Assembly: GCF_023650515.1 (NCBI RefSeq) | Contig: NZ_CP096016.1 | Span: forward strand, 1,450,001-1,514,000 | Length of the DNA: 64,000 nucleotides | Direction of reading: 5' to 3' | DNA from: Alkalimarinus coralli | GTDB lineage: Bacteria; Pseudomonadota; Gammaproteobacteria; Pseudomonadales; Oleiphilaceae | In this document: in pieces, positions 7,383 to 31,375 of the stretch | How the letters are laid out: every line of letters starts with the position of its first letter | Numbering within the stretch: position 1 is the first letter of the stretch | Notes under the pieces: generated by a model | Database searches by the model: none | The model's input: the letters and a program-made list of their open reading frames with translations, nothing else | Told to the model about the DNA's origin: nothing | Program-made: the position numbers and the translations under genes

Positions 7383-9980
7383 TTAGGCTTCAACTGAGGC
7401 GGTCGCTGCTTTTGTTGTGTACTCAGGCATCTTGTCAAAGTTCAAGTACTTGTACACTTCTGAAGACATGCTGTTTAGTTTGGATGCATACTGCATGTAT
7501 TCTTCAGTTGTTGGAAGTTTACCCAGGATTGCACCAACAGCTGCTAGTTCTGCTGAAGTAAGGTATACATTGGCTCCATCACCTAAACGGTTAGGGAAGT
7601 TACGAGTCGATGTAGACAATACTGTGCTGCTAGCTGCAACACGCGCCTGGTTACCCATACATAGAGAGCAGCCTGGCATTTCAGTTCTAACGCCAGCTGT
7701 ACCGAATGTATTGAAGTAACCTTCTTCCATCAACTGGGCTTCGTCCATCTTGGTTGGTGGAGACATCCAGAAGCGAGTCTTAAGAGGCTCTTTATTGGCG
7801 GCAAGCAGTTTACCGGCTGCACGGAAGTGGCCGATGTTAGTCATACAAGAACCGATAAATACTTCATCGACGCCAACGCCGGCAACATCAGATAGTGTTT
7901 TTGCGTCATCTGGGTCGTTAGGGCAGCAAACGATAGGCTCTTTAATATCGGCGAGATCGATCTCTACGATATGCTTGTACTCTGCATCGCTGTCAGCTTC
8001 AAGCAGTTCTGGGTTAGCCAACCAGGCTTCCATCGATTGTGCGCGACGCTCAAGCGTGCGTGGGTCACCGTAACCTTCTGCAATCATCCAGCGTAACATG
8101 GTGATGTTTGAGTTCAGGTATTCGGCAACTGATTCTTTCGAAAGCTTGATTGAGCAGCCCGCTGCAGATCGCTCAGCAGATGCATCAGAAAGCTCAAACG
8201 CCTGCTCAACGGTTAGGTTGTCAAGACCTTCAATTTCCAGTACGCGGCCTGAGAACTCATTGATCTTGCCTTTCTTCTCAACAGTCAGTATGCCTTGCTT
8301 AATGCCGTACAAAGGAATCGCATGTACCAGATCACGTAACGTGATACCTGGCTGCATTTCGCCTTTAAAACGAACCAATATTGATTCTGGCATATCAAGA
8401 GGCATTACGCCTGTAGCGGCAGCAAATGCAACCAAACCAGAACCGGCAGGGAAAGAAATACCCATTGGGAATCGCGTATGAGAGTCACCGCCTGTACCCA
8501 CAGTATCTGGAAGAAGCATACGGTTTAACCAGGAGTGGATGATTCCGTCACCTGGGCGAAGAGCAACACCGCCACGAGTTTGGATGAAATCAGGCATGGT
8601 GTGTTGCATCTCTACGTCAACAGGCTTTGGGTAAGCCGCAGTGTGACAGAAGGACTGCATAACCAAGTCAGCCTGGAAGCCTAGACATGCCAGGTCTTTC
8701 AGTTCATCACGAGTCATTGGGCCTGTTGTATCCTGTGAACCAACGGTAGTCATTTTAGGTTCACAGTATGTGCCAGGACGTACACCCTGACCTTCAGGAA
8801 GACCACAAGCACGACCCACCATTTTCTGTGCAAGGGTGAACCCTTTTGTGCCAGCTTCTGGGTCAACAGGCAGACGGAAAACGTCTGTTGCGCCTAAACC
8901 AAGCGCTTCACGTGCTTTTGTCGTTAAGCCTCGACCAATGATCAGGTTGATACGGCCACCGGCTTGAACTTCATCAAAAATAACTTCAGATTTGATGTTG
9001 ATTTCAGAAACAACTTCGCCCGCTTCATTTAAAATTTTACGGTCATAAGGACGAATTTCAATAATGTCGCCCATGTTGATGTTGTCTACAGGCGCTTCAA
9101 ATACAAGCGCACCGGCATCTTCCATAGTATTGAAGAAAATAGGCGCCACTTTAGAGCCAAAACATACACCGCCAGTACGCTTGTTAGGTACACCTGGCAT
9201 GTCGTCGCCGAAGAACCATAGTACTGAGTTGGTTGCAGACTTACGTGAAGAACCTGTACCTACAACATCACCGATAAACGCGACAGGGTATCCCTTGGAT
9301 TTAATTTCTTCGATTTGACTGATTGGGCCTGTAACACCGTGTTCTTCAGGCGTTAGACCATCACGAGTCATTTTAAATGCAGCACGCGCGTGTAGAGGGA
9401 TGTCTGGGCGTGACCATGCATCGGGCGCAGGAGAAAGGTCATCAGTATTGATCTCTCCTGTTACTTTAAAGGCTGCCATTTTGATGCTTTCAGCCACTTT
9501 GTCTCGGCTGGTGAACCACTCGGCATTTGCCCAAGACTCAATAACAGATTTAGCTTGCGCGTTACCTGCATCCATTTTCTCTTTAATGTCATTGAATGCA
9601 TCAAATACAAGAAGAGTATGCTTCAGCTCTTTGGCTGCCAGTTCTGCAAGCGCAGGCTTGTCTAATTGCTCAACAAGAGTGGCAATGTTATAGCCGCCTT
9701 GCATCATGCCCAATAACTGAACAGCTTTTTCATCGCTGACTAAAGGTGAGGTAGCTTCACCGTTCAAGATTGCTGTCAAAAATGCAGCTTTAACGTATGC
9801 GGCTTCATCAACGCCTGGAGGGATTCGATTTTCAAGTAGGTCAACTAAAGTCTCTTCCTCACCTGCTGGCGGGTTCTTAAGTAATTCAACGAGACCCGCT
9901 ACTTGTTCGGCGTTAAGTGCCTTAGGTGGTACTCCTTCAGCTTCACGCTCTGCTACGTGTTTACGATATGCTTCTAGCAC
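7383..9980 (-). CDS. acnB: Aconitate hydratase B
   Basis: An 865-residue protein that aligns along its whole length with AcnB as I remember it from E. coli, including the N-terminal HEAT-like domain ([16 protein letters not shown]). It interconverts citrate and isocitrate in the TCA cycle. The [4Fe-4S] cysteines are C712 ([10 protein letters not shown]), C771 and C774 (GCSLCMGNQ). The start codon is GTG with an AGGG site upstream. In other bacteria AcnB can also hydrate 2-methylaconitate and, as apoprotein, bind mRNA. It has its own terminator and an upstream region of almost 300 bp shared with miaE. Confidence 0.97.
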
Positions 9981-10232
9981 AATTTAAACCCTCATCAGTT
10001 CCTGAGCCCGGATGACTTTACATCGTTATCCCGGGAGTTGTTGATTGATATATCCTTGCCGATACGTATCTGATTATCTTTAGGGATATAACAGTCTTAA
10101 TTTTTTTAAGCGGCGGTATTCTACAGTATTTTAATAAAAAAGTTAAGATTGGAATCGGCGTGTATTATTGGTCTTTAGTAGATAATAGTCATTGTTGTCA
10201 GGTGGTTAATTAGGTGTTCGGGCTATATAATC

Positions 10233-10247
10233 GCCCCTTTTTGGGGC
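10233..10247 (+). promoter_or_regulatory. Small hairpin and -10 element in the miaE leader
   Basis: A perfect five-base stem GCCCC/GGGGC with a T5 loop stands about 30 bases upstream of the miaE start. A TATAAT hexamer lies just before it at about 10226-10231, with no convincing -35 at normal spacing. Little more can be said. Confidence 0.35.
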
Positions 10248-10277
10248 TGGCTTATTTACCTTATTTTGGAGTTATGC

Positions 10278-10889
10278 GTGGCGAATCAACAGGATTTAAC
10301 TGAAATCTATTCATTCTTACCCTGTGAGACACCTGATGAATGGGTTCAATGTGCGTTAGATAATCAATCCATAATGCTGATTGATCACGCTCACTGTGAA
10401 CGAAAAGCCGCGTCAACGGCTATTAATCTAATGTATCGTTATCCGGCCAAGTTGGATTTGCAGGCAAAAATGTCTAGATTAGCTCGAGAGGAGTTGCGGC
10501 ATTTTGAGCAGGTGCTAGCGATAATGAAAAAAAGAAATATCGTTTTTAGGGGGATGTCGGCATCTCGCTATGCCGGTGGAATGAGAGAGTACGTCAGAAA
10601 AAGCGAGCCAGAGCAGTTGGTCGATGTTTTAATTATAGGTGCATTTATAGAAGCTCGATCGTGTGAGCGGTTTGCGAAGATTAGTCCATTTTTGGATGAT
10701 GAGTTGAGACTGTTTTATCAATCGCTATTAAAGTCTGAATCCCGGCACTATCAAGATTATTTAAAGCTGGCGAGAGATGCGGCGAATGGATCAATAGATC
10801 AAAGGGTTGCGGAGTTCTGTGAAGTGGAGAAGGCTTTAATTACAAGTGCTGATAACGAGTTCCGGTTTCACAGTGGTGTGATGCCTTAA
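10278..10889 (+). CDS. miaE: tRNA-(ms2io6A)-hydroxylase MiaE
   Basis: About 203 residues, a ferritin-like di-iron protein. Metal ligands can be read in the segments HAHCERKAAS, REELRHFEQV, EARSCERF and ESRHYQDYL, that is two E..ExxH-type half-sites. MiaE hydroxylates the isopentenyl side chain of ms2i6A37 in tRNAs that read UNN codons and needs oxygen. The likely start is GTG at 10278, six bases after GGAG; the TTG further upstream would include the ribosome site in the coding region. It is convergent with lpxH. Confidence 0.92.
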   Translation: MANQQDLTEIYSFLPCETPDEWVQCALDNQSIMLIDHAHCERKAASTAINLMYRYPAKLDLQAKMSRLAREELRHFEQVLAIMKKRNIVFRGMSASRYAGGMREYVRKSEPEQLVDVLIIGAFIEARSCERFAKISPFLDDELRLFYQSLLKSESRHYQDYLKLARDAANGSIDQRVAEFCEVEKALITSADNEFRFHSGVMP

Positions 10890-10920
10890 TCAGCAAAATT
10901 CGTTTTATGAGTGAAGGGCA

Positions 10921-10947
10921 ACCCTTTAGTCTAGTGCTCTAAAGGGT
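10921..10947. terminator. Hairpin between convergent miaE and lpxH
   Basis: The arms ACCCTTTAG and CTAAAGGGT (9 bp, perfect) enclose nine bases and include the lpxH stop codon. It could serve as a two-way terminator, although neither side has a long T run. Confidence 0.6.
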
Positions 10948-11662
10948 GGCTCAGTAGTTCAATTTCGCCCGTGGCATCTGCTTTCAGATACCAGACGTTT
11001 TTGTCCCAGTCGCCAAGTACAATCCGTTTGGCGGCTCTTCCGTTGGCTTCAATCTCATGTATTGCCGGGCGATGTGTATGCCCGTGAATGAGTGTGTTAA
11101 CGTTATATTTTACTAGCGAAGATTCAACCTCGGACGGAGTAACATCCATTATTTCGAGTGTTTTGCCCTTGTTTTTTGCCTGGCTTATCGTACGAAGTTG
11201 TTGTGCTACGATTTGCCTCTCAGGCAGGCTGCGCTTTAAAAATAGCACTTGCCACTCGCTATCTCTCATGTTCTTACGGAACTTCATGTACTCAATATCA
11301 TTAGTGCAAAGGCTATCGCCATGCATCAACAGAACATCCTTGCCGTAAAGGTTTACTGTCGTGGGGTCTTCCAATAAGGTGGCCCCTGTCTCTTCGCAGA
11401 ACTGCTGGCCTATTAGAAAATCCCTGTTGCCATGCATTAAAAAGATATGGGTTCCAGAGTCTGATGTCTCTCTTAGCTTGCTTTTTACTTTGACCTGAAG
11501 TGGGGTATTTTCATCGTCACCGATCCAGGCTTCAAAAAAATCACCAAGGATGTAAAGCGCATCAATACCTTGTGCTTTGTTATCGAGAAACTCAAAAAAC
11601 GCCCTGGTTATTTCAGGGCGCTCTTCCTCAAGGTGTAAATCCGAGATAAATAGAGTGGTCAT
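10931..11662 (-). CDS. lpxH: UDP-2,3-diacylglucosamine diphosphatase LpxH
   Basis: A 243-residue calcineurin-type phosphoesterase that makes lipid X in lipid A synthesis, at the inner membrane. The metal-site motifs are all present: SDLHL (residues 7-11), GDFFEAWIGD (about 40-49), HGNRDFLIG (about 78), HGDSLC and GHTHRP near residue 195. Its start overlaps the ppiB stop by one base (TAATG), so the two genes are translationally coupled, as in related bacteria. Confidence 0.95.
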   Translation of the reverse strand: MTTLFISDLHLEEERPEITRAFFEFLDNKAQGIDALYILGDFFEAWIGDDENTPLQVKVKSKLRETSDSGTHIFLMHGNRDFLIGQQFCEETGATLLEDPTTVNLYGKDVLLMHGDSLCTNDIEYMKFRKNMRDSEWQVLFLKRSLPERQIVAQQLRTISQAKNKGKTLEIMDVTPSEVESSLVKYNVNTLIHGHTHRPAIHEIEANGRAAKRIVLGDWDKNVWYLKADATGEIELLSHPLEH

Positions 11663-26323: not shown

Positions 26324-26340
26324 CATTGTTGCTCCACAGG

Positions 26341-26370
26341 AAACGAGGCCGTAGCGCCTCGTTTTTTTTG
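26341..26370 (+). terminator. Terminator of ppiD
   Basis: The stem AACGAGGC/GCCTCGTT is followed by a run of eight T residues. Confidence 0.9.
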
Positions 26371-26441
26371 CCCAGTGTATAGTTGAACACGCAATTAACG
26401 GTTTAATAGTACCAATAGCGAGACCTTCTTCACGTTACGAG

Positions 26442-26600: not shown

Positions 26601-27401
26601 ATGATTCTTGTACTTGTCGGCTCTGTCTTAGCGTTTACCATGGTTCAAGAGGCTAGTGTTATCGAACCTCATAAAAAGGGATTGGTAATATATGAGCGCT
26701 CTATTAATAATGAATCAACCTTCGTTCAAGAACGGGTAGTCGTTGAGCCTCTCTCAGAGTTACGGTTTAGAAATATAACTCGCCAAGCATACGACTATAG
26801 TTGCGGGTCCGCAGCGTTGACTACTGTTCTTGAGTTCTATTTGGGGCGTAAGTTCCAGGAAAGGCAGGTTATGGAAGGGCTGCTACATTACGGAGAAAGT
26901 GAAAGGATTGTCGAGCGAAGAGGCTTTTCTATGTTAGATATGAAACGCCTTGTGTCGGCCTTGGGGTATCCGGCTGGAGGGTTTAAGGCTGAAATTGAAG
27001 ACTTGGAAGAGCTTGATCACCCTGCAATTGTGCCAATTCATCATGCTGGCTTTAAGCACTTCGTAGTGGTGAGAACTATAAAAAATGGCAGGGTATACAT
27101 AGCCGACCCATCTCAAGGGAATATAACGTTCACAGTAGAGCGATTTAAAGAAAAGTGGGATCAGAACGTGCTGTTTGTGGTGTTCCCGGGGAACTCAAAG
27201 CCTATAGATGCTCTGGAGCTCAGGGAAGAAGATCTTAGGCATATCGATGATCAGACGATTACCTATCTTGCTTTTCAGCAATTTCCAGACTTCAACGAAG
27301 CGTTGGAGTTTAAGATACAAAACGAGCTTGAGCGTCAGAAGAACAATCCCGATGGCTCAGTTGACAATACTGTGAAGCACCTGCATTACAAAAGACAATA
27401 A
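26601..27401 (+). CDS. Stand-alone C39-family cysteine peptidase
   Basis: A 266-residue protein with a short hydrophobic N-terminus (MILVLVGSVLAFTMV), probably a signal or anchor placing it outside the cytoplasm. The C39 site is complete: Q62 (oxyanion), C68 in YDYSCGSAAL, H153 in FKHFVVV and D169 in YIADPSQG. C39 domains normally trim double-glycine leaders as part of ABC exporters, but no ATPase or exporter domain is fused here. Stand-alone C39 proteins occur in envelope and amyloid systems (FapD in Pseudomonas). The C-terminal 70 residues are charged and not part of the peptidase. It is the first of four codirectional genes for envelope proteins; its substrate is unknown. Confidence 0.85.
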   Translation: MILVLVGSVLAFTMVQEASVIEPHKKGLVIYERSINNESTFVQERVVVEPLSELRFRNITRQAYDYSCGSAALTTVLEFYLGRKFQERQVMEGLLHYGESERIVERRGFSMLDMKRLVSALGYPAGGFKAEIEDLEELDHPAIVPIHHAGFKHFVVVRTIKNGRVYIADPSQGNITFTVERFKEKWDQNVLFVVFPGNSKPIDALELREEDLRHIDDQTITYLAFQQFPDFNEALEFKIQNELERQKNNPDGSVDNTVKHLHYKRQ

Positions 27402-27455
27402 ATTCTAATAATACACATACTCACAATAACTAATTACTAATAAAAGGGATCAGGA

Positions 27456-28466
27456 ATGAACCGTTGGGTAGTACCATGCTCTTTCTTATTTGTGTCAATA
27501 CTCGCTTCAGAAGTTTACGCTGAAGAAAAATCAAGCGTTGATAAAGCCAGGGAAGCTTTAACTAAACAAGAAGGGGACTCAGACTCTGCTAAACAGCTCG
27601 AGGAGGTTTTTCAGGCAGCAGAGAAAAACTACTCTCTGTTAAAAAAGGGCAAGCAGTCCATGAGCTATAGTTTTGACTATAGCTATTTTGGTGATCAAAG
27701 GTTTGATATCGAAATCGTGAACAACTCTGTGCGGAACCTTGACGTCACCCCTGCAGCGACCCACACATTTACTAACTCTTTTTCGTACGACTACGGACTG
27801 CTCAATAACTTGACTGTTAGTGCAAGGGTTCCGCTATCGTCAAAGTTTGATACTCAAGATGAGCTGTCAAATACTGATCTTGGAGACATCAGTTTTACAC
27901 TGCGTTGGCAGCCATTGGCTTATGTTCCTGGAAAACCATCGATTACACTGTTTAGTTCTGTAAAAACAAAAACAGGTGTTAGCCCCTACGAGATCGACGT
28001 GAACCGTGAGCTTTCTTCGGGCAGTGGTTACTATTCGGTTTCTGGTGGTGTTAGTACTTCCAAAGTTATTGATCCTGTTGTGCTATTTGGCTCGCTGAGT
28101 ATGACCTATAATTTTGAGCAGGAGGACTTGAACCAGGTTCGAGGAGCTAGGTTACTTAGAAGTGTTGAACCAGGAATCAGTCTGTCTCTATCTGGCGGGT
28201 ATTCCTACTCGCTTTCTTATGACACCTCTTTGAGCGCGTCAGTGCAAATTAGTTATTCAGACGAAACCATTCTTCATTTTAGCGATGGCACAGCAGCCAA
28301 AGCGCAGGATCAGGTAAGTAGCATACTCAACTTCTCACTCGGTAATCGAATTAGTGAAAAAACAATCATCAATACTAATGTTGGTTTCGGGTTAACAGAA
28401 GACTCTCCCGATGTCCTTATAGGCTTCTCCTTGCCTATTAATCTAGCGGGTTTAAAGGACGAATAA
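27456..28466 (+). CDS. Secreted beta-barrel protein with helical head (transporter/FapF-like architecture)
   Basis: A 336-residue protein with a signal peptide ending near ASEVYA (about residue 22). Residues 25-65 are charged and helix-forming, possibly a coiled coil. From about residue 68 there are repeated alternating aromatic/small patterns of outer-membrane strands (for example SMSYSFDYSYFGD), ending in GFSLPINLAGL. The layout recalls the PF13557-type 'transporter' barrels and, more loosely, FapF, the amyloid export channel that also has a helical head before its barrel. I do not recognise it by sequence. It lies 54 bp after the C39 peptidase gene and is probably cotranscribed. Confidence 0.65.
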   Translation: MNRWVVPCSFLFVSILASEVYAEEKSSVDKAREALTKQEGDSDSAKQLEEVFQAAEKNYSLLKKGKQSMSYSFDYSYFGDQRFDIEIVNNSVRNLDVTPAATHTFTNSFSYDYGLLNNLTVSARVPLSSKFDTQDELSNTDLGDISFTLRWQPLAYVPGKPSITLFSSVKTKTGVSPYEIDVNRELSSGSGYYSVSGGVSTSKVIDPVVLFGSLSMTYNFEQEDLNQVRGARLLRSVEPGISLSLSGGYSYSLSYDTSLSASVQISYSDETILHFSDGTAAKAQDQVSSILNFSLGNRISEKTIINTNVGFGLTEDSPDVLIGFSLPINLAGLKDE

Positions 28467-28493
28467 CAAACTAATTGGGATGAGAAGTTGCTA

Positions 28494-30122
28494 ATGAAAA
28501 GTATTAGACGTAGCGGCTACAAATTGGTGCAAGCTATTGCATTGTGTAGCTTGGGCATGCCAGTAATGGCCCAAATGACAACTAACTTGACTGGGCCTTC
28601 CAAGGCAATGTCGCTTGGTAATGCGGTTACTGCAGATACCCCCGGAGTATTTGCAATTCAGTACAATCCAGCTGGTTTATCAAAAGTTAAAGGGCGTCAA
28701 TTCCAGTTTAATTTGTTGAATGCCTATATGGACATTGATGCCGACTTCATTGCGCCTCCGGGGTATGAAATTTTTGGCATTGATGGCTTGGCTATTGACC
28801 CGGTTACGGGACAGCAGAAAGATTGGGCTGCAAATAACCACAGCCATACCAACACAGTAGCGGTTTATTTGCCTGGTTATGGCTTACAGAAGCTGCCAAG
28901 AGGCCCCGGTGTTTTACCTACCATGGGTTTCTCCATTAATGCCCCTGGTTCGAAATTTACTTTTGGTAATGCGTTTTATATGCCTATGTTCGCTGGTTTT
29001 TACCGGGACGAAGGCGACCCCGGGAAATATATGCCTAAGGCAACCGCTATGCAACGGGTTACCTATCTTTCGCCTACTGTCGGTTATGAAATAAATGACG
29101 AGTGGTCTGTTGGTGCCGGCGTACAGTTCTCACATCAGGCTATTGCAGCAGACCAGTGGATGAGGGCTCCCAATATGCTGTTGGGCGTTGCCGAAATACT
29201 ACAGGATGCGTTTAACTGTGAAAGTGGGAATGAGCCTTTAGCGCCTTTTATCGCGCTATGTGGTGGTAATGTTGGTCCATGGGATGACGTGGGCGCTATG
29301 AGCCTGGATCTCCAGGAAACAATATCGCCAACTTACTCACTAGGGGTCTTGTGGGAGCCAAATGACTGGTTTTCCTGGGGGGCATCCTACTACAGTGAGG
29401 CCGATATGAACTTAAAAGGGACATTCGAGCTGAACTATACTGATGATTGGTCAGGTTTTTGGCAAAGCTTAAATGGCTCTATTATTGGCGCGATAAGCGC
29501 AGCCATTTTAAGTCTTCCTTCGGGGGCGCCTCGTGAAGCGGGCAATGTTTCTTCCAAGTTAACCTATCCTCAGCACTTTAAGTCAGGTATAAGTCTTAAG
29601 GTGCACCCCAAGTTAACCATCAATGCCGATGTTGGCTATTATGACTGGAGTACCTTCGACGGACTTCATTTGCAGTTTGACAGGAATCTTGAATTCTTGG
29701 GGGCCGCGAAAATTCTTTCACCTGAAAACGCAACATCTAATACCCTAACGCTTCCGTTTAACTGGACGGATGAATGGAATATTGGAATCGGCTTCGAACA
29801 TCACGTTACGTCACGTCTTGATTTAAGGTTTGGGGCAGAGATCCGAGACTCTATTACCCCTGATGACCAGCGGAGCTTGTTAGGTGTTTTCGGTGACTCA
29901 ATTCTGTGGGGCGCAGGATTAGGTTATCAGTGGGATAAGGATAGTGTTGTTGATTTTCACATCTCTTATCTCCAATCCATTGAGTACATTCCTGCAAATG
30001 GTAGTTGTAACCTTAACTGTGATAACCTTACGAATATTATTTATAACCCTTATGCGGGCCTGGATGTAAAGACATCGTTGAGGTTTGCTTCGTTAGGTTT
30101 TTCGTTTAGAACAAAATTTTGA
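28494..30122 (+). CDS. FadL/OmpP1-family outer-membrane protein
   Basis: About 542 residues with a signal peptide (cleavage near PVMAQ, about residue 27). The mature start has the family signature: SLGNAVTADTPGVFAIQYNPAGLS (here quoted in part: NAVTADTPG, YNPAGLS), which forms the N-terminal hatch. The C-terminus ends in the aromatic SLGFSFRTKF expected for an outer-membrane barrel. FadL-type channels take up hydrophobic compounds such as long-chain fatty acids. Two cysteine pairs (near residues 241/256 and 503/507) may form disulphides. ATG at 28494 is preferred to a TTG two codons earlier. Its TGA overlaps the next start (TGATG). Confidence 0.85.
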   Translation: MKSIRRSGYKLVQAIALCSLGMPVMAQMTTNLTGPSKAMSLGNAVTADTPGVFAIQYNPAGLSKVKGRQFQFNLLNAYMDIDADFIAPPGYEIFGIDGLAIDPVTGQQKDWAANNHSHTNTVAVYLPGYGLQKLPRGPGVLPTMGFSINAPGSKFTFGNAFYMPMFAGFYRDEGDPGKYMPKATAMQRVTYLSPTVGYEINDEWSVGAGVQFSHQAIAADQWMRAPNMLLGVAEILQDAFNCESGNEPLAPFIALCGGNVGPWDDVGAMSLDLQETISPTYSLGVLWEPNDWFSWGASYYSEADMNLKGTFELNYTDDWSGFWQSLNGSIIGAISAAILSLPSGAPREAGNVSSKLTYPQHFKSGISLKVHPKLTINADVGYYDWSTFDGLHLQFDRNLEFLGAAKILSPENATSNTLTLPFNWTDEWNIGIGFEHHVTSRLDLRFGAEIRDSITPDDQRSLLGVFGDSILWGAGLGYQWDKDSVVDFHISYLQSIEYIPANGSCNLNCDNLTNIIYNPYAGLDVKTSLRFASLGFSFRTKF

Positions 30123-31375
30123 TGATCAAGTTTCTATCAATACCCGTCAAAAATGCTCATTACCTTGCAGTGTTTATGGTGGGTATATTTATTCTCTCTA
30201 TAGCTTCGCTATATTCTCCCTTAGCACAGGCTGAAAAGTATTTCACTTGGGTTGATGAAATGGGGCGTGTTAATCATACGCTTATCCCTGAAGAGGATAA
30301 CCCCTTAATCAAATATAAACGAGAGGAAAAGCTTGACCAAGAGGTTATTGATGGTGAGAGCTATTCATCGAAATTAAATAATTCAGATTCGGTAGAAGAA
30401 AAAGCAACGTCCACAGTGGATACAAAAAAGCTCGAGGTTAGCCGCCAAAATGAAAGCACTAACGGTGCTGAAGAACTCGTTCTACAGCCTGATGAGGTGG
30501 CTACAACGGACAAACGAGCTATTAATGATTTGGAGCCTGAGCCTGATTCAGTAACACCCTCTAGCCGCAAGATTGTCATAAATGAAGAAGATTATGTCGA
30601 TGGTGATCTGCTTCTGGAGCAAGGGGGCGTTAGAAGTCAGAGTGACTTGCCATATTACACATGGACTGATGAGCAGGGTAGAGTAAGAAATACGCCTTAT
30701 CAGCCAGCCGTATCAAATATGACGTCCAAGGCAGCTCAACCAAAAAAGACGAATATAGTTGAATATTCGGTATATGAGGAATACAGACGCGGGATTAAAA
30801 CCGTTAGTGTTGCTAACCAGGCTGATGAGTACGCAAGGGAGTTGTTTTTTGGTAAGGAAGAAGAAAACTTTATTGATGCCTTTGCAAAGAAATGTTGTGA
30901 AGAATTGCCAAAAGAATCACCCGATACTCTGACGTTTGAAGACTCTGTTTATGTTGAAATTGACAAAAAATCGGAATCCTTCAATTTTGCTGAAGGAAAA
31001 AGCCCGTTCCAGCTATTTCTACTACCCAACACCCAGGAAACCTATAGTCTGAGTCTCAAAACATTCGTTAAAAGTAGCGGCAAAACAGGCGTAAAGAATG
31101 GCGTTTTTTTCCCTCAACTTGTTTTCCTGGATGATAATTTCGAAGTCGTTCGGATCATTAGAAACCCCTCAATGGAGTTTTCTCCTGAGAACTGGCGGCG
31201 GCACGGCTATCTAAAAGGACTTTTTAAAATAAATGGAGTAGATAAGGAACGTTATGTTCTTATCAATACAACAAAAAAAATCTTGTTAACCAGGAACCAA
31301 ATTAGAGGCAGTAAAGTTATTAATTTTAAAAACCAAAAAACTGGTTCCTTAGAGTTAGAAATTAAGAAAATATAA
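30122..31375 (+). CDS. Periplasmic protein with two DUF4124-like segments and a MalM-like C-terminus
   Basis: About 417 residues with a hydrophobic signal or anchor (roughly residues 15-38, ending SPLAQA). Two related segments, YFTWVDEMGRVNHT near residue 41 and YYTWTDEQGRVRNT near residue 178, look like DUF4124 motifs. They are separated by a low-complexity acidic linker. The last 150 residues (FAEGKSPFQLFLLP, VFFPQLVFLDDNF) resemble the maltose-operon periplasmic protein MalM. A conserved-looking KKCCEEL lies between. It is coupled to the FadL-like gene by a one-base overlap, so the two products are probably made in fixed ratio and may work together. Function unknown. Confidence 0.65.
   Translation: MIKFLSIPVKNAHYLAVFMVGIFILSIASLYSPLAQAEKYFTWVDEMGRVNHTLIPEEDNPLIKYKREEKLDQEVIDGESYSSKLNNSDSVEEKATSTVDTKKLEVSRQNESTNGAEELVLQPDEVATTDKRAINDLEPEPDSVTPSSRKIVINEEDYVDGDLLLEQGGVRSQSDLPYYTWTDEQGRVRNTPYQPAVSNMTSKAAQPKKTNIVEYSVYEEYRRGIKTVSVANQADEYARELFFGKEEENFIDAFAKKCCEELPKESPDTLTFEDSVYVEIDKKSESFNFAEGKSPFQLFLLPNTQETYSLSLKTFVKSSGKTGVKNGVFFPQLVFLDDNFEVVRIIRNPSMEFSPENWRRHGYLKGLFKINGVDKERYVLINTTKKILLTRNQIRGSKVINFKNQKTGSLELEIKKI

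Follow-up and report, generated by a model that had tools for sequence, protein, structure and literature searches.

The filBCDE operon of Alkalimarinus coralli as probable machinery of a Fap-like secretion route with scattered cargo genes

In open PubMed Central (PMC) text, a search for the substrates of periplasmic C39 peptidases returned only papers on the Fap system. According to the accessible parts of two of these (PMC5557850; PMC6173800), the target of the Fap peptidase FapD is unclear, its active-site Cys is required for secretion of FapC, and complete N-terminal processing is seen for FapE alone. FapE had been suspected by the Fap authors on the basis of GG/GA motifs, with canonical C39 sequences described as lacking in Fap proteins (PMC5557850, accessible part). 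A second relative is the six-gene fil operon of Acinetobacter baumannii, in which the sixth open reading frame (ORF) encodes the antigen FilF (PMC4751259, accessible part); no functional paper on filA-E was found in open PMC text. The C39 ATP-binding cassette (ABC) exporters, or PCAT, which include ComA, LahT and PCAT1, are a further point of comparison. Here we compare these systems with filB, filC, filD and filE of Alkalimarinus coralli, four genes at 26601-31375 on the + strand of the window, the whole 64,000-nucleotide stretch analysed. All coordinates given without a label refer to this window; L and G labels denote the loci and genomes compared, and A. coralli itself is G000.

We put the probability at roughly 70% that filBCDE encodes the machinery for a Fap-like route of secretion, with cargo genes dispersed around the chromosome. 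In such a route, Sec would export each FilA/DUF6160-type cargo, and signal peptidase would cut after A-x-A, exposing a second tag of 16 residues. FilB, which has an N-terminal hydrophobic stretch and is presumed to be periplasmic, would dock this tag through the hydrophobic positions -15, -12, -7 and -4, much like the binding of double-glycine leaders by ComA and LahT, and would cut behind G-Q. The trimmed cargo could then cross the outer membrane via the FapF-like pore FilC, with FilD and FilE as putative accessories where cargos are large, perhaps in docking or surface display.

Two of the genes resemble Fap in pairing a stand-alone C39 peptidase with an adjoining FapF-type pore. The product of filB (26601-27401, + strand, 266 aa) was identified by Pfam, NCBIfam and residue conservation. 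It matches Pfam Peptidase_C39 at 2.3e-21 (E values, here and below) and NCBIfam pilus_FilB at 2.1e-81 (273 bits, below the cut-off of 475), with FapD as the second-best NCBIfam match (8.8e-36, 123 of 330 bits), and it also matches the PCAT structures of LahT (6mpz, 7.1e-9) and PCAT1 (1.9e-9). All 12 homologues aligned share residues Q62, C68, H153 and D169, which we take to be catalytic. The C39 domain is the only one present, and transmembrane or ATPase domains are neither fused nor adjacent, the neighbours being barrels and a presumably periplasmic protein, FilE. The product of filC (27456-28466, + strand, 336 aa) is a FapF-like outer-membrane barrel with a helical head. It matches pilus_FilC (6.4e-104, 348 bits, below the cut-off of 630) and, second best, FapF (9.1e-20, 71 of 700 bits, below cut-off); Pfam returned no match for the barrel. 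Its solved relative is FapF (3.8e-12), a profile search of the PDB returned FapF chains only (best 1.2e-29), and Foldseek with a structure model (predicted local distance difference test, pLDDT, 71.8) placed FapF at all of ranks 1-18, with template modelling (TM) scores of 0.49-0.55 by query length. Because FilB keeps the C39 catalytic residues and FilC is FapF-like, the pair supports the proposed route. Two FilC homologues elsewhere (L089:3253-4719, 488 aa; L090:8858-10360, 500 aa) carry additional N-terminal sequence that by eye resembles OmpA.

These results agree with a first-pass annotation of the sequence, which had described a C39 peptidase without exporter ATPase and a barrel with a helical head, had noted their kinship to FapD and FapF and the foreignness of a FadL/MalM pair to fap, and had suggested that the substrate is encoded elsewhere. 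Its view of the module as unassigned, and perhaps undescribed, needs correcting: genes 1-3 are homologous to NCBIfam FilB, FilC and FilD ("putative pilus system"), albeit outside the curated scope, and the A. baumannii operon is in print. Its interpretation is partly supported: what stands is a Fap-related envelope module with its substrate elsewhere and a FadL/MalM pair foreign to fap.

Important clues to the cargo come from FilA, whose family is Pfam DUF6160 (PF19657), a family of unknown function that was found in open PMC text in one paper, as an item of a list. In the A. coralli genome PF19657 matches 20 places at E<=1 and 17 at E<=0.001. These loci are scattered, with six genes standing together at one place and three at another, and one unit is tandemly duplicated; none of the FilA-type genes adjoins filB, and the NCBIfam FilA model matches a protein of L171 at 1.2e-9 (38 of 220 bits). 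A profile of signal plus leader, A3, built from 33 rows, gave 21 matches at E<=0.1 in the same genome (19 at <=6.5e-12, one at 0.003 and one whose value is not listed). About 20 leader-bearing FilA/DUF6160 proteins are thus encoded outside the window, and a regular expression (regex) found no leader-bearing gene within it; regex "leaders" in TtcA (w34922) were dismissed as false positives, the signal peptide being absent.

The leader starts right after the A-x-A of the Sec signal and has the 16-residue consensus E-L-x-x-(L/M)-x-D-x-x-(L/M)-x-x-V-x-G-Q. Among 18 A. coralli proteins, positions -15, -12 and -7 are hydrophobic in 18/18 and -4 in 15/18, with 0/18 at -11, -10 and -6, while G at -2 and Q at -1 each occur in 17/18 and one protein ends in GA. 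The hydrophobic positions are those by which ComA and LahT recognise their leaders (PMC10885120, accessible part), a coincidence that supports the proposed route and suggests that the tag is a double-glycine-type leader. The mature parts behind it are diverse: those of 20 A. coralli cargos form groups of 8 and 6, plus 6 singletons (E<=1e-3). LahT also acts on many precursors (PMC10885120, accessible part), so that one C39 peptidase for many precursors is a further likeness to the ABC exporters; FilB differs in having no transporter or ATPase and in its predicted Sec-exported substrates.

The position of FilA-type genes in other genomes can also be informative. For instance, L086 (G064) has the same gene order, with four DUF6160 genes preceding filB and a FilF-type gene following it; among the proteins scanned, two of the four match FilA (1.4e-16, 1.5e-18) and the FilF-type protein matches FilF (9.1e-19), all below cut-offs. 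A leader-bearing FilA gene lies directly upstream of filB in 7/9 Thalassolituus-type loci (L258-L266); in the remaining two the contig ends there. The proposed route gains support from this placement of FilA-type genes immediately ahead of filB in both settings. Further support comes from L082, where the signal of a cargo-like protein of 1541 aa runs directly into AGISIDL, the DUF6160-like sequence at which the mature part is predicted to begin. The regex for such signal-to-mature joins gave three matches over 329 loci, with only L082 convincing, against 46 distinct stretches preceded by G and then Q, A or K. The L082 gene (L082:3165-7790) lies in the filD-filE interval; its product has TSP3 repeats and matches GlyGly-CTERM weakly (0.036).

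Several features of the leader-bearing genes can be recorded alongside. Five of the A. coralli proteins (L168:6824-8116, 8459-9631 and 9882-11114; L175:4114-5244; L176:5024-5962) share a C-terminal end of about R(T/R)EY(I/V)DRGxGLF, and eight others form a FilA-type group with a YGH terminus in seven; such shared ends are possible exit signals. In L168:4908-16433, six leader genes follow each other between transposase-like and birA-like genes (by eye), similar runs occur in L293 (G013) and L290 (G042), including a member of ~800 aa, and in L170:4960-9539 of A. coralli a two-gene filA unit is tandemly duplicated, with matching ends and equal lengths across copies. A secreted-looking protein of ~170-230 aa lies beside filA genes or filB at L170:9736-10326, L173:6326-6907, L291:9801-10490 and L082:11515-12021. 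The first three copies are alike (28-36% identity) and the L082 copy is doubtful (18%); the two that were scanned had no Pfam match, and the protein is perhaps a cargo chaperone.

Co-occurrence across genomes links the leader to the Fil-type pore. In a class sample of 369 Gammaproteobacteria genomes, FilC matches were found in 40, of which 6 were strong (E<1e-50: G000, G064, G067, G195, G266, G307) and 34 weak (best 9.5e-25; FapF-like where examined). DUF6160 at E<=0.001 occurs in exactly the 6 strong-FilC genomes, above the Pfam cut-off in 5, and the leader profile at E<1e-6 in these 6 alone; the other 363 reach 6.8e-4 at best, with a match <0.01 in 14 genomes. That DUF6160, leader and strong FilC mark the same 6/369 genomes supports the proposed route. 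Since these six genomes supplied rows to A3, PF19657 and an A3 search with all candidates scored serve as independent tests. In the latter, nine genomes without A3 rows (G001, G013, G014, G020, G026, G031, G038, G042, G052) had 2-27 leader matches each, with a best E of <=2.4e-8; that every genome in this set outside the training carries the leader is a further argument for the route. Among 17 genomes without Fil-type FilC, searched in the same way, 9 had no leader match and 8 had one (best 2.1e-4). At the level of 58 relatives, A. coralli counted, a FilC match was found in 36, all of them with DUF6160; 3 had DUF6160 only, 19 had neither and 0 had FilC only. By family, 8/8 with Fil-type FilC have leaders. 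The complete genome G015, from the same family as A. coralli, has PpiD and a weak C39 match (2.8e-31), and FilC, FilD, DUF6160 and leader were not found there; it carries an orphan FapD-like C39 peptidase (L285:8783-9334).

The operon itself is more than a chance arrangement. One peptide pattern found 137 relatives in named genomes, and among the best 80 loci 61 have the order B-C-D-E, in line with the conserved linkage that the first pass had proposed to look for. The remaining 19 comprise 11 with C-D-E only, 4 without a FilC call, 2 with split D/E frames, 1 B-C-D and 1 B-C-E; in several of them the simple gene caller shows an antisense ORF where the gene would be. Most hosts among these best 80 of 137 are Marinobacter; Hahella, Oleiphilus and Thalassolituus-type bacteria are also present, and the closest is labelled an uncultured Oleiphilaceae bacterium (93% identity). 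In 34 relative loci, 24 are B-C-D-E and in one more a 1541-aa gene separates D from E; the nine others include contig-end cuts, loci with B-C or B-C-D only, and one without a FilC call. Acinetobacter fil (NF050077-NF050081) is alike in its FilB, FilC and FilD homologues, in their order and in having FilA-type (DUF6160) proteins in the genome; it differs in that filA is dispersed and multiplied in A. coralli, where scores fall under the Acinetobacter-level cut-offs.

The last two genes appear to be accessories. The filD product (28494-30122, + strand, 542 aa from ATG) is an OmpP1/FadL-type barrel that matches Pfam Toluene_X at 1.3e-60 and pilus_FilD at 2.8e-145 (485 bits, below the cut-off of 970). 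By analogy only, the pairing of a FadL-type barrel with a secretion protease recalls PorV and PorU of type IX secretion, FilD being nearer to FadL (2.2e-7) than to the PorV family (5.1e-6, weak and below cut-off). The product of filE (30122-31375, + strand, 417 aa from ATG) has MalM (2.7e-11) and two DUF4124 stretches (6.5e-7), as the first pass had read both genes. It matched none of the NCBIfam Fil models, and it is named by position only. A profile of the window-type FilE, searched against L083 and L086-L090 at E<=1e-3, returned no match. FilD was not found (NF050080, E<=1e-10) in four genomes that retain FilB, FilC and leaders (G052, G067, G195 and G307); FilB and FilC are the minimal core. 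Among the matches listed, leader-bearing frames measure 101-272 aa in these four genomes (median 143.5, n=46) and 104-2071 aa in eight FilD genomes (median 334, n=89). FilD and FilE may serve large cargos, since the FilD-less genomes carry the shorter leader-bearing proteins.

The comparison with Fap can be taken further. Of the 34 weak-FilC genomes, 22 yielded a Fap-type locus, and in 12 of these 22 loci a gene next to fapD encodes a leader with the spacing of the Fil leader, which again supports the proposed route. These leaders end in G-R (5), G-G (5), G-K (1) or G-M (1), for example LSEIPDPELNLMRGR followed by Y, and sit some residues after the signal, whereas the Fil leader ends in G-Q right behind it. 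Scans of four of these genes gave FapE matches below the cut-off for two (4.1e-29, 1.1e-19) and no match for the others. On balance, we lean towards reading FilB/FilC and FapD/FapF as two branches of one tandem-address class, a Sec signal followed by a C39-read leader. In the Fil branch, with G-Q, one machine would serve up to dozens of unrelated cargos; in the Fap branch, with mostly G-R or G-G, the leader would mark FapE, which would make FapE a FapD substrate. The leader alignment adds to an earlier suspicion, since the Fap authors raised FapE first. Differences from Fap include the extra FadL and MalM proteins of the window and the many scattered cargos. FapB/FapC amyloid repeats were found neither adjacent nor in the 10/20 A. 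coralli cargos scanned with NCBIfam, with no genome-wide FapB/FapC search made. Two weak leader-profile matches in G228 (C35:14690-14791, 0.002; C13:53638-53754, 0.001) were also seen; the former, ~1.5 kb from a FapF-type match, is perhaps a Fap-type leader.

Care must be taken with several points that weigh against the proposed route. Known C39 cleavage falls behind GG, GA or GS (PMC10885120, accessible part), here the ending is G-Q, and Acinetobacter FilF is described as a surface lipoprotein released via the type II system (PMC12802150, accessible part). FilF had no match in the A. coralli genome at E<=1, and the controls were equally silent. The exact-spacing leader was not found beside fapD in 10/22 Fap-type loci, among which L315 has no fapD match and L308 a leader one residue longer. 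In the class searches, no more than 13 or 18 candidates were scored in any genome, and the Fisher values for co-occurrence (3e-13, 2e-12) ignore kinship. Finally, the drafts G020, G026 and G031 have leaders and no FilB, FilC or FilD match; an assembly gap is likely, because PpiD, the neighbour of fil in their genera, is missing too.

Of the alternatives, the one that survives best, though we consider it improbable, is that FilB spares the cargo and either trims FilC or gates the pore as a chaperone, the tag being a retained docking helix. Cleavage of FapF by FapD was considered by the Fap authors (PMC5557850, accessible part), some C39 subsets are described as purely chaperones (PMC6173800, accessible part), and in every Fil-type genome that was looked at closely FilB and FilC form the core pair. 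However, the tag fits the C39 leader positions, the catalytic residues are invariant and the L082 protein begins at the predicted cut, all of which favour cargo cleavage. Less likely again is a genuine pilus or fibre built from FilA subunits, as the NCBIfam label "putative pilus system" for FilA-D and FilF would have it and as the amyloid fibres of the related Fap system might suggest (PMC5557850; PMC6173800, accessible parts). The cargos, some 20 in a genome, have passengers that are unrelated and, in four genomes, mostly short; such a set is unlike one subunit, and no Fil pilus was found described in open PMC text. The FilA structure model (pLDDT 55.5) was too poor for judgement and was left unused. 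An uptake module for hydrophobic compounds or lipids, with DUF6160 linkage as a by-product of shared ancestry, is very unlikely: FilD is FadL-type, FilC resembles COG4313 channels (4rl8, 1.7e-7) and several hosts are hydrocarbon degraders, but the four genomes without a FilD match keep FilB, FilC and leaders, co-occurrence spans eight families with the same-family G015 lacking both partners, and the lipid-linked role raised in the first pass was rejected as having only the FadL-type match and host lifestyle in its favour.

The four genes are a real, operon-like set. Their ORFs are free of internal stops, with gaps of 54, 27 and -1 bases, and the close packing and one-base overlap of the last two reported in the first pass were both recovered, the overlap (TGATG, 30120-30124) being valid if filE starts at ATG 30122. 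For filD, a TTG lies at 28488, two codons upstream of ATG 28494. Upstream, a PpiD-like gene is set apart from filB by a terminator-like hairpin and T run (26336-26371, + strand; -15.8 kcal/mol, z -3.8 vs 200 shuffles), which is absent from the list of the consensus terminator scan; the promoter and terminator scan did no better than shuffles (14 vs 10.0; 5 vs 4.5). Downstream lies a polysaccharide deacetylase gene on the opposite strand.

If the proposed secretion route is true, it would offer a testable answer to what periplasmic C39 proteases cut. The common leader code ties the Fap peptidase question to DUF6160 and allows precise mature N-termini to be predicted for many candidate surface proteins, and its confirmation would give the "pilus" label of the fil operon a function.

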